Assembly (NCBI GenBank): GCA_947631675.1
Contig: CANRMG010000111.1
Coordinates: 1 to 6,262 of the forward strand
Reading direction: 5' to 3'
Source: an uncultured Oscillospiraceae bacterium
GTDB lineage: Bacteria > Bacillota_A > Clostridia > Oscillospirales > Oscillospiraceae
Length of the DNA stretch: 6,262 nt
Below, in pieces: positions 1 to 6,262 of this stretch (positions are counted from its first letter, which is position 1; every line of letters begins with the position of its first letter). The notes beneath the pieces are model-generated. The model did not search any database. It was not told the origin of the DNA and saw nothing but the letters and a program-made list of their open reading frames with translations. The position numbers and the translations under genes were made by a program.

Positions 1-547
1 CCCGGCCGATCACCGGGTCCAGTTCGTTATCCCGGGCCCGCTGGACCAGGTCGGTGCCGTACTTTTGAAGGGCGTCGTAGGTGTCCTCCGGGCTGTCGGT
101 GGTGACGTGGCCGGTCTTGACTTTGGCAAGCTCCGCGGTGAAGCCGTCCTTCGTCACATTATACTGCCGCAGGATGTCCCGGATGGCGGGGGTGGGGTGG
201 GCGAAGATGCCCAGCATCAGGTGTTCCACGGACACGTACTCATCTTTGAGCTGGGCCGCCACCTTCTGGGCGAAGTCTATAATTTTGCCGAACTCGTTGG
301 AGGGGTACACGCTCTGGGCCCCCTGGACCTTGGGCAGCTTGCTTATGGCGCTGTCCAGGGCCGCGAGAACGCCGTCGCAGTCCACGCCCATGCGGCCGAA
401 GAGGGTGGGGATGAGCCCCCCGTCCGCGTCCAACAGGGCGTAAAAGAGGTGCTCCGCCGTAACGTACTGGTTGTCGTTCTCCCGGGCCATGGCGGTGGCG
501 TTGTTGATGGTCTCTATGGTCTTCTGTGTCAGCTTGTCGCTGTTCAT
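1..547 (-). CDS. clpB: ClpB disaggregase, N-terminal part (cut by window edge)
   Basis: This is the first 182 codons of the Hsp100 ATP-dependent disaggregase ClpB, which with DnaK/DnaJ rescues aggregated cytoplasmic proteins. The translation starts MNSDKLTQKTIETINNA and shows the two Clp N-terminal repeats: one around residues 10-70 with the motif YVTAEHLFYALL, the second around 85-145 with YVSVEHLMLGIF. It then reaches the linker and the family signature ALQKYGTDLVQRARDNELDP before running off the window just ahead of the first Walker A motif. The ATG at 545-547 is chosen because AAGGAAG (557-563) lies 9 nt upstream and the protein start aligns with the family. No CIRCE operator or CtsR tandem heptad is visible upstream. 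A 257-bp inverted-repeat element begins 43 bp upstream of the start codon. Identity is very secure; the C-terminal two-thirds, including both ATPase domains, lies outside. Confidence 0.96.
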   Translation of the reverse strand, partial: MNSDKLTQKTIETINNATAMARENDNQYVTAEHLFYALLDADGGLIPTLFGRMGVDCDGVLAALDSAISKLPKVQGAQSVYPSNEFGKIIDFAQKVAAQLKDEYVSVEHLMLGIFAHPTPAIRDILRQYNVTKDGFTAELAKVKTGHVTTDSPEDTYDALQKYGTDLVQRARDNELDPVIGR

Positions 548-658
548 GACAGGTCACTTCCTTTTGAAAAATACTTCTCGCTATGCTATGGCGCTCCCTG
601 CGTCGACAGCAAAGCGCGGCCGGCCATTCCAGTGTTGGCATAGCGCGGCACAGCCCGA

Positions 659-714
659 CAGTACACCTGCGCACCGTTTCGCTTCGCTCAACAATGTGCC
701 AAGCAGGCGCACTG
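659..714 (-). other. Hairpin inside the element, stable only in minus-strand RNA
   Basis: The segments 659-670 and 703-714 form a 12-bp stem. Ten pairs are Watson-Crick. The other two (663 with 710, 665 with 708) are G-U wobbles in the minus-strand transcript but A-C mismatches in a plus-strand transcript. Inside the stem, 671-674 can pair with 696-699 and 676-678 with 690-692, leaving a purine-rich loop. The asymmetry suggests that the RNA read in the same direction as the genes is the one that folds. A function is not shown. Confidence 0.55.
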
Positions 715-779
715 CCGGTTCTGTCCGCGCGTCAGGCTGGTGAGGGCCGCCCGCCGACGGCGCTCCAAGGAGGCAGCGT

Positions 780-823
780 CCCCGAGCAAATATTGCTGAG
801 CGCAGCGAAGACGTTTGCCGGGG
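780..823 (-). other. Second hairpin inside the element
   Basis: The segments 780-790 and 814-823 pair over ten bases (CCCCGGCAAA with TTTGC and CGGGG on the minus strand) with a single bulged base at 785. The loop holds a small nested hairpin, 795-798 with 803-806. The loop sequence at 797-809 is complementary to the loop of the neighbouring hairpin at 678-690. There is no T-tract, so this is not an intrinsic terminator. Confidence 0.55.
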
Positions 824-870
824 ATGCTGTCGACGCAGGGAGCGCCTTATCCAGCCGCACGTTAGGCGCA

Positions 871-1521
871 TTACAATATCACATTCCCCGCCCGGAGCCA
901 GGCGATATACTCGCCCTCCACGTCCCGGGGGGCCATGTTCCCGGCCAGATACCCCTTCATGAGCCTATCAAAAAGCTGCACGTAGGCGCTGATGGCCGCG
1001 GCCACGTCGGCGGTGGCGTAATCCCGCCGACCCGGCAGATCCAGGGTGCGGGTGAACCGGCCGGGGTACAGGGCGTATTCCACCGGCACGGGGTGATAGG
1101 CCGCCACCAGCTCGTCCTCCACCTCTTTCCACAGCCGGAAGAAATCGCCCATGGCGTCCAGAAGCTCCTGGGACTGGGTGCGGAACACCACCGCCAGCTC
1201 TCCCATGGCGCCCTCCCGGTCCCGGTACAGCTCCACGGAGTACTTCACCGTGGGCCGGTAGCGGTACTGGAGGCTGGATTTCATGCTCATGGTCATGGCG
1301 TTGGGGGCCACGAAGGGCACCAGGTCCGTGTCCGCGCCCAATATCTCTCCGATCTGGCGGAAGATATCCTGGACCCGGCGCTCCGGCGTCACCATATCCG
1401 TGTACTCGGCCAGGATCTGGTTCACCAGGGCCGAGCGGTTGGTGCCCATCCGATGGGCCAGGGCATCCACGGCCCGGACCACGTCGTCGGAGAGCATCAG
1501 GCTGTACAGGGTCTTTTTCAT
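871..1521 (-). CDS. Ribbon-helix-helix domain protein with unknown C-terminal region
   Basis: This is a 216-residue protein. Residues 1-43 fit a CopG/Arc-type ribbon-helix-helix DNA-binding fold: a short basic strand (MKKTLYSLML), a helix with acidic cap (SDDVVRAVDALAHRMG), then TNRSALVNQILAEY as the second helix. Such domains dimerise and insert the paired strands into the major groove. Residues about 45-216 are a mixed alpha/beta region with a conserved-looking stretch near 67-100 (LVPFVAPNAMTMSMKSSLQY) that I do not recognise; it is far longer than a plain antitoxin tail. The ATG at 1519-1521 has GAGGTGAG (1527-1534) 5 nt upstream and its own strong promoter. No toxin-like partner gene adjoins it, which argues against a simple toxin-antitoxin role. 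A transcriptional regulator, possibly autoregulated, is likely; the target is unknown. Confidence 0.85.
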   Translation of the reverse strand: MKKTLYSLMLSDDVVRAVDALAHRMGTNRSALVNQILAEYTDMVTPERRVQDIFRQIGEILGADTDLVPFVAPNAMTMSMKSSLQYRYRPTVKYSVELYRDREGAMGELAVVFRTQSQELLDAMGDFFRLWKEVEDELVAAYHPVPVEYALYPGRFTRTLDLPGRRDYATADVAAAISAYVQLFDRLMKGYLAGNMAPRDVEGEYIAWLRAGNVIL

Positions 1522-1541: not shown

Positions 1542-1570
1542 ATTCTACCGCTCTATATAAACTTTGTCAA
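1542..1570 (-). promoter_or_regulatory. Sigma-A-type promoter of the ribbon-helix-helix gene
   Basis: On the minus strand a perfect -35 TTGACA (1565-1570) is followed by exactly 17 bp and a -10 TAGAAT (1542-1547). Transcription would begin near 1535, giving a leader of only about 14 nt that is essentially the ribosome binding site. It is the clearest promoter in the window and lies downstream of the terminator of the preceding operon, so this gene is its own transcription unit. Confidence 0.85.
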
Positions 1571-5242: not shown

Positions 5243-6262
5243 TTAAAACCGCTTTTTCCGCTTGCCGCCGGCCTTCTCCCCGGCCAGCTCCGCAAACTCC
5301 TGCAAAAGCTCCTTCTGCCGGTGGCTCATGTTCTTGGGGGTGGTCAGCTCCACGGTCACGAACTGGTCGCCCTTGAGCCCCGTGCGCAGGCTGGGCACGC
5401 CCTTGCCCCGCAGGCGGAACACGCTGCCGGTCTGGGTGCCCTCGGGTATGTTCAGCGATACCTGGCCGTCCAGGGTGGGCACCTGGATCTCCGTTCCCAG
5501 GGCCGCTTGGACGAAGCTGATGGAAGCGGTGGTGTAGATGTTGGTGCCCTCCCGCTGGAAGGTGGGGCTGGGCCGCACCTGCACCGTCACCAGCAGATCC
5601 CCGGCGGGGCCGCCGTTGGCTCCGGCATTGCCCTGGCCCTTCAGGGAGACGGTCTCCCCGTCGTCGATGCCCGCGGGGATGGTCACGTTCAGCTTCTTCT
5701 GGGCCCGGATGGAGCCCGCCCCCCGGCACTTGGCGCAGGGGGAGTGGATGATCCGGCCGGAGCCGCCGCACTTGGGGCAGGGGCCGGAGGACTGCATCAT
5801 GCCGAAGGGGGTCCGCTGCTGGCGCATCACCGTGCCGGTGCCCCGGCAGTCGGGGCATATCTCCGGCGTGGTGCCGGCGGCGCAGCCGGTGCCCTTGCAG
5901 TCCGGGCACTGGTCCACCCGGGTGATGTTGATGTCCTTCTTGCAGCCGAAGGCCGCCTCCTCGAAGGAGATGGCCAGCCGGGCCCGCAGGCTCTCGCCCC
6001 GGCGGGGACCGGTGCGGCTGGCCTGCCGGGCTCCGCCGAAGCCGCCAAAGCCCCCGAAGCCGCCGAAAATGTCCCCGAAGATGTCGCCCAGGTCCCCGAA
6101 GTCCCCGGTGAAGCCGCCGGCATTGGCAGCGAAGTTGGGGTCCACGCCGGCGAAGCCGAACTGGTCATACTTGGCCTTCTTGTCCGGGTCGGACAGCACG
6201 GCGTAGGCCTCGTTGGCCTCCTTGAAGCGGGCCTCCGCCTCCTTGTCGCCGGGGTGCAGGTC
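5243..6262 (-). CDS. dnaJ: DnaJ (Hsp40, type I) co-chaperone, missing its first residues
   Basis: 339 codons of DnaJ are present; the start lies beyond the right edge. DnaJ delivers unfolded clients to DnaK and stimulates its ATPase. The visible part begins DLHPGDKEAEARFKEANEAY, so the first base is the Asp codon of the J-domain HPD motif, and roughly 35 residues are missing. Then follow VLSDPDKKAKYDQFG (J-domain helix IV), a Gly/Phe-rich linker (visible residues about 35-77, with repeated FGG), and four CxxCxGxG zinc motifs: CPDCKGTG, CPDCRGTG, CPKCGGSG and CAKCRGAG, with cysteines at visible positions 119/122, 136/139, 162/165 and 176/179. The C-terminal client-binding domains and a basic tail (GGKRKKRF) follow. 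All four zinc motifs make it type I and intact. It is usually last in hrcA-grpE-dnaK-dnaJ, and the terminator just after it fits. A GTG at 6197-6199 is an internal Val codon, not the start. Confidence 0.97.
   Translation of the reverse strand, partial: DLHPGDKEAEARFKEANEAYAVLSDPDKKAKYDQFGFAGVDPNFAANAGGFTGDFGDLGDIFGDIFGGFGGFGGFGGARQASRTGPRRGESLRARLAISFEEAAFGCKKDINITRVDQCPDCKGTGCAAGTTPEICPDCRGTGTVMRQQRTPFGMMQSSGPCPKCGGSGRIIHSPCAKCRGAGSIRAQKKLNVTIPAGIDDGETVSLKGQGNAGANGGPAGDLLVTVQVRPSPTFQREGTNIYTTASISFVQAALGTEIQVPTLDGQVSLNIPEGTQTGSVFRLRGKGVPSLRTGLKGDQFVTVELTTPKNMSHRQKELLQEFAELAGEKAGGKRKKRF

Follow-up and report, generated by a model that had tools for sequence, protein, structure and literature searches.

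The inverted-repeat block before clpB in an Oscillospiraceae bacterium: most probably one insertion of a mobile family of long extragenic palindromic repeats

What is the long inverted repeat that separates clpB from its upstream neighbour in an uncultured Oscillospiraceae bacterium, and does it do anything for clpB? The stretch of DNA analysed here (the window; 6,262 nucleotides) carries six genes, all on the minus strand: the N-terminal part of clpB, a gene for a ribbon-helix-helix (RHH) protein, a DUF4015 gene, rpiB, a gene for a PMT-type membrane protein and dnaJ. The RHH gene lies directly before clpB, both in the window and at all 30 loci of relatives that were examined (L063-L092). An earlier note on this DNA proposed that the block between the two genes is either a MITE-like element or a structured RNA switch in the clpB leader. 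The evidence assembled below points with good confidence to one insertion of a mobile family of long extragenic palindromic repeats, akin to REP/BIME and ERIC sequences, and not to a dedicated clpB switch. The features concerned are collected in Table 1.

Table 1. Features of the window around the inverted-repeat block
Feature	Position	Strand	Basis
clpB, N-terminal part, truncated at the edge of the window	2..547	-	NCBIfam and PDB matches
clpB leader adjoining the block, with ribosome-binding region AAAAGGAAGTGACC	548..589	-	
Whole inverted-repeat block, A-B-A′ composite between RHH gene and clpB	590..846	-	arms, fold, missing in 15 of 30 relatives
A′, the first 22 nt of A in inverted copy	590..611	+	arm match
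Module B, palindrome of about 100 nt	634..737	-	19-copy alignment, covariation, model R2
Module A, palindrome of 88 bp, ends GGCGCTCC/GGAGCGCC	759..846	-	22-copy alignment, covariation, model R1
22-nt arm, start of module A	825..846	-	first 20 nt exact in 18 Oscillospiraceae loci
RHH protein gene, upstream neighbour of clpB	871..1521	-	PF01402
Promoter-like site TTGACA-17-TAGAAT before the RHH gene	1542..1570	-	consensus match only

The lower end of the RHH gene (871) and the clpB start (547) are 323 bp apart. The identity of clpB is based on its N-terminal 182 amino acids, which are all of it that the window holds; the best NCBIfam match is TIGR03346 (ClpB), which scores 134 bits where a full-length protein would need 1232, and the best PDB matches are ClpB chains. 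The two arms of the block (590-611 and 825-846) are identical over 22 bp in inverted orientation and are separated by 213 nt; extended to 587-611 and 825-849, they match at 24 of 25 positions. A first-order Markov model of the window was used to simulate 200 sequences; among their perfect inverted repeats with arms within 400 bases of each other, the longest measured 16 bp. One long hairpin is predicted from either strand of the block (z = -8.0 for plus and -7.55 for minus), and none of 200 shuffled sequences folds as stably. The block is crossed by open frames, among them one of 96 amino acids at 581-871 on the minus strand, but a codon-score gene finder that recovered all six real genes of the window calls none there. 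A search of the window against Rfam with E-values up to 1 gave nothing in the block and one sub-threshold match elsewhere (5336-5374). Plasmid and phage collections contain no match to the block, and the exact 20-nt arm is absent from IMG/VR. The earlier description is therefore accurate in its arms, its ends at 590 and 846, its interior of about 213 bp, its 323-bp gap and, as far as the N-terminal part goes, its downstream gene. It is also right about the wealth of hairpin structure and, in substance, about the lack of a reading frame; its remark that no named element has these ends stands within Rfam, the plasmid and phage collections and, for the exact arm, IMG/VR.

The layout of copies in other genomes reveals that the block is modular. 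It consists of two hairpin modules, A and B, together with a 22-nt inverted copy of the end of A, here called A′. Module A measures 88-89 bp across its copies; B follows A in some copies and occurs without A in others. A′ is probably the leftover of a second, inverted A. Beside the A copies at the 18 other Oscillospiraceae loci no second exact arm is present (one copy, in L010, continues up to the end of its stretch), which makes the window the only known case of the A-B-A′ composite so far. In seven instances a match to the B model coincides with an A copy on the other strand, which suggests that the reverse of A is probably a diverged form of B; the A and B of the window would then themselves form an inverted pair.

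The first 20 nt of the arm occur in 19 stretches of genome_contigs, of which 18 come from five Oscillospiraceae MAGs (Lapin-001, -008, -022, -028 and -033) and one from an Acidobacteria MAG that has the arm in common and little else. Covariance models find A (model R1) in 11 and B (model R2) in 13 of the 35 genomes of one Oscillospiraceae genus, at E-values up to 1e-5. Matches to B number at least 55 in G222, at least 21 in G300 and at least 18 in G418; the census scored 125 candidates for A and 117 for B per genome, and its counts can be lower bounds. All these copies were counted in the genomes of relatives, the host being represented by the window. Beyond the genus, a DNA search of 400 genomes of the family (two candidates scored per genome) and a search of 300 with the B model (stricter filters, 13 candidates scored per genome) each matched three genomes; only G001, G222 and G300 were matched in these samples, and all belong to the genus, to which the A/B family is confined as far as found so far. 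Copy number varies, and one genome counts against a repeat family: G002, of which 2.14 Mb were read, has only seven A and three B matches by sequence profile, with one of the B matches overlapping an A.

Some copies of A and B are solitary. B also forms inverted pairs with 5-6 bp between the units, ten in all (eight in G222, one in G300 and one in G001); in G427, three B units follow one another in direct tandem. On contigs C11, C12, C16, C19 and C32 of G418, B-like units that have diverged make up alternating arrays in which neighbours are about 20-160 bp apart.

The dispersed copies make it easy to dispose of the most trivial explanation, namely that the block is a chance inverted repeat or a fold-back artefact of assembly. 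The A-B-A′ arrangement has indeed been seen in the window only, but the arms are far beyond chance (22 bp, against the 16-bp maximum in 200 Markov sequences), and A and B are multi-copy, with conserved structure, in the assemblies of other genomes. G001 also has both modules at the same clpB site. For A and B the other copies exclude an artefact, and this explanation as a whole is left with next to no probability.

The hairpins themselves have been kept while their sequences changed. Two-sided changes affect 12 of 29 pairs in the 22 copies of A (30 alignment cells, against 7.2 in shuffles) and 10 of 29 pairs in the 19 copies of B (47 cells against 16.6). For both modules, none of 500 shuffles is as high in cell count or covariation score, a significance that is overstated, since the copies share ancestry and the structures were derived from those same alignments. 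If the partner is shifted by 1-3 columns, only 0-7 two-sided cells remain. Other measures are less clear-cut: 34 of 500 shuffles had as many changed pairs as B, and as many pair types were seen in 58 of 500 for A and 32 of 500 for B. The size of the covariation effect nevertheless makes it likely that the hairpins of A and B are under upkeep. Covariation among copies, which the earlier note had suggested looking for, is thus strong in both modules, in copies that stand beside many different genes.

Where these copies lie is equally informative. None of 74 unique copies (26 of A and 48 of B) falls inside a gene as called by the codon-score gene finder. Merging them gives 57 sites, and with four at stretch edges left out, 53 could be placed: 31 in tandem, 19 in convergent and three in divergent gaps. 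The baseline is a single genome, G002, with 864 gaps of at least 60 bp (527 tandem, 136 convergent and 201 divergent). Relative to it, divergent gaps are depleted (binomial P 6e-4) and convergent gaps enriched (P 3e-4), both P values being computed over sites from related genomes that are not independent. In tandem gaps there is no strand bias, with 23 copies running with transcription and 19 against it.

The clpB spacer can be compared across the genus. The RHH gene was found in 33 of the 35 genomes; three of those gave no locus, and 30 spacers were read. In 15 of these relatives the spacer is only 16-60 bp long and free of any element. The spacer of G001 has A and B; that of G002 has B only, A apparently having been lost between GCGCTCCC repeats. 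In G004, G005 and G423, B is reversed. Nine of the 30 hold another palindromic family, C (assigned by eye), and G410 has something other than A, B or C. On a tree of the two flanking proteins from 29 relatives and the window (L085, in which clpB is cut, was omitted; 10 of 27 inner branches are weak), the six spacer states require 10 changes by parsimony, two of them to reversed B and both forced by well-supported branches. The clpB spacer is one slot whose content has changed repeatedly. The mobility proposed in the earlier note therefore holds up: rather than being single-copy and conserved at this locus, the modules are multi-copy and the clpB site is variable. Its expectation of an empty clpB site with a target duplication is borne out in the first part, by the 15 relatives with empty sites, and not in the second, there being no general duplication over 55 sites.

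Other slots behave similarly. The flanks of 19 A copies from other genomes were sought in G002, where 11 could be compared, corresponding to nine distinct places. Seven of these places hold C (by eye, one of them a half copy), one another hairpin and one a gap of 33 bp; certain A copies have a counterpart in G002, L012 with L194 being an example. Among 13 joined sites of G222 and G300, B is common to some and reversed at one (L257 versus L314), C replaces B at three (L315, L316 and L323), and a further palindrome, D, interrupts B at L317. The L257 site is empty in G425.

Families C and D can be outlined as follows. C reads GCCTCCCTCTGACGAGGGAGG...CGGAGGGAGAG...CTCTCCCCCAGTC...GACAGCCCCCTCGTCAGAGGGGGC and was recognised by eye in the same slots of related genomes (L065, L067, L072-L074, L076, L078, L079 and L085; in G002, L161, L171, L100 and L209). 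Element D is palindromic and about 115 bp long, with examples in L317, L323, L210, L148, L146, L170, L155 and L193. By eye, 18 of 31 D copies lie within C palindromes and two within B, near the hairpin tip; a scripted stem test did not bear out a place in loops, with a mean of 4.65 against 4.54 for mismatched flanks and none of the 31 reaching nine pairs.

How do the repeats move? One possibility is a classical MITE, that is, a non-autonomous remnant of a DDE-type insertion sequence that moves by cut-and-paste and duplicates its target. Terminal inverted repeats, size, lack of a coding gene and dispersed copies all agree with this. A B copy in G300 (L257:1456-1625) has CCAGCCGTAA on both sides, and G425 (L286) has CAGCCGTAA once; the flanking CCAGCCGTAA may be a target duplication of 10 bp. 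Direct repeats of at least 10 bases are shared at three of 55 sites, where about one is expected; these three form an outlying minority. Over all 55 sites, however, the longest shared direct repeat averages 6.49 bases against 6.15 for mismatched flanks, which gives no general signal of duplication. Nor has a transposase-bearing parent element been seen among the exact-arm matches in five genomes, all of which fall in A hairpins, and B occurs in inverted pairs and alternating arrays, an unusual layout for MITEs. A classical MITE is thus distinctly improbable. The proposal of a MITE-like element stands in so far as the repeats are short, multi-copy, mobile and gene-free with terminal inverted repeats; they fall outside the strict definition because no general target-site duplication was found over 55 sites.

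A Y1 transposase (PF01797) was also considered as the mover. No match is present in G001, G222, G300 or G418, the four genomes richest in B matches. PF01797 occurs in 12 of the 35 genus genomes, five of which are among the 13 that bear B; of its 14 matches, two had their flanks checked, and A, B and D are absent beside both. With the domain missing from the B-richest genomes and no repeats beside the two checked matches, this candidate is unsupported.

Mobile extragenic repeats are the better comparison. REP, BIME and REPIN sequences are described as extragenic imperfect palindromes in many copies, with preserved palindromy, that form inverted pairs and arrays and are located mostly in tandem and convergent gaps, close to the 3′ ends of genes (PMC3116915, PMC2817692, PMC3733652); A and B resemble them in all these respects. 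For REPINs, the loss of copies has been recorded as three excision reads and one excision that was population-wide (PMC3116915). REPs, however, are 20-40 bp long and in most families studied are accompanied by a RAYT (Y1) transposase (PMC3116915, PMC2817692, PMC3733652), whereas the A and B units measure 88-100 nt and the four B-richest genomes have no Y1 match. The repeats are not REPINs in the strict sense, since the units exceed 20-40 bp and no linked Y1 transposase was found. A missing transposase would by itself be compatible with the CGTC class of REPs, which likewise has no dedicated one, but the stems of that class are 8-9 bp long (PMC3733652). The ERIC/IRU/RU-1 repeats of enterobacteria are similar in having a unit of 127 bp, folded transcripts and intercistronic copies that can be co-transcribed; they differ in TA ends, target duplications and enterobacterial hosts, a separation made by description (PMC2229807). 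A and B, by comparison, form inverted doublets, and no general duplication was found for them. Correia/NEMIS and RUP, which are MITEs, are also small and non-coding, with terminal inverted repeats and folded transcripts, but they are listed with TA target duplications, and RUP with a proposed parent IS (PMC2229807, PMC10969869), neither of which was found for A and B. A and B are thus a variant of small palindromic mobile repeats outside the named families, with ERIC compared by description. On such repeats in gut Clostridia, nothing fitting was found in the literature covered, which lay outside preprints and most subscription journals.

This leaves the question of what the block means for clpB. 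A scan of positions 500-1700 for consensus promoters found none on the minus strand inside the RHH-clpB gap; the site before the RHH gene is the sole minus-strand candidate in that range. Because the two genes are 16-60 bp apart when the slot is empty and the only promoter-like site precedes the RHH gene, the block is probably part of a message that spans RHH gene and clpB. Such a position would suit a leader RNA whose structure acts as a clpB switch, with heat as one conceivable trigger, as would the strong fold, the covarying modules and the G-U pairs kept on the clpB-sense strand at two positions of B (in 15 of 19 and 14 of 19 copies). On the other hand, the covariation derives from copies beside many different genes and in both orientations, and at the clpB site itself half of the relatives (15 of 30) lack the block, three have B reversed and nine have C. 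Leaving the block out of the prediction hardly alters the openness of the clpB ribosome site (0.71, against 0.73 when it is present) and leaves that of the start region at 0.52, and no Rfam family matches the block. A clpB leader switch, as raised in the earlier note, is therefore very unlikely.

The dispersed copies, the variable content of the clpB site and its 10 parsimony changes argue for a mobile repeat rather than a conserved clpB switch. On this reading, units of about 88-100 nt disperse across the genome and come to rest at the 3′ ends of genes; the gap between the RHH gene and clpB received one A, one B and an inverted A end. In the RHH-clpB message the block would fold into one large hairpin that at most alters how the message is processed or decays between its cistrons, and it would persist mainly as a selfish repeat. 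In Yersinia, ERIC sequences are reported to affect processing or decay between cistrons, with an influence of their orientation (PMC2229807). By analogy, a hairpin of the size of the block could have an effect of this kind.

A broader reading, which is speculative and on balance doubtful, is that the palindromic families A/B, C and D are a community that colonises the same gene-end slots, replacing one another between sister species, inserting in either orientation and nesting in hairpin tips. If so, their copying would recognise extruded or single-stranded hairpins, without target duplication and without a Y1 transposase.

The repeats add a REP/BIME-like family from gut Clostridia, with units two to four times the length of REPs and with the usual transposase missing from the genomes that have most copies. 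Across species, empty, single, inverted and composite forms of the clpB spacer make up a natural series, through which both the movement of the repeat and the effect of an intercistronic hairpin on a chaperone gene become testable. It also carries a warning: a strongly covarying leader may be misread as a riboswitch when the covariation stems from a dispersed repeat.

Two minor observations concern possible protein-binding sites. Beside the promoter-like site of the RHH gene are TTTATATAAA/TATATAAA repeats; as they adjoin this site, the RHH protein may repress its own gene and control clpB as well. In module A, the unpaired sides of the internal loop, CTGCGTCGA and CCTCCTT (columns 9-17 and 75-81 of alignment A1), are near-invariant in 22 copies and could be bound by a protein. 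CCTCCTT is the anti-Shine-Dalgarno sequence, and a corresponding role was considered and dropped since the copies face both ways relative to genes. This internal loop also has a conserved CGTC, and the 5′ end of B a GACG, either of which might relate to the tag of the CGTC class of REPs; the A copies in L004, L010 (the second), L011 and L012 have loop inserts.
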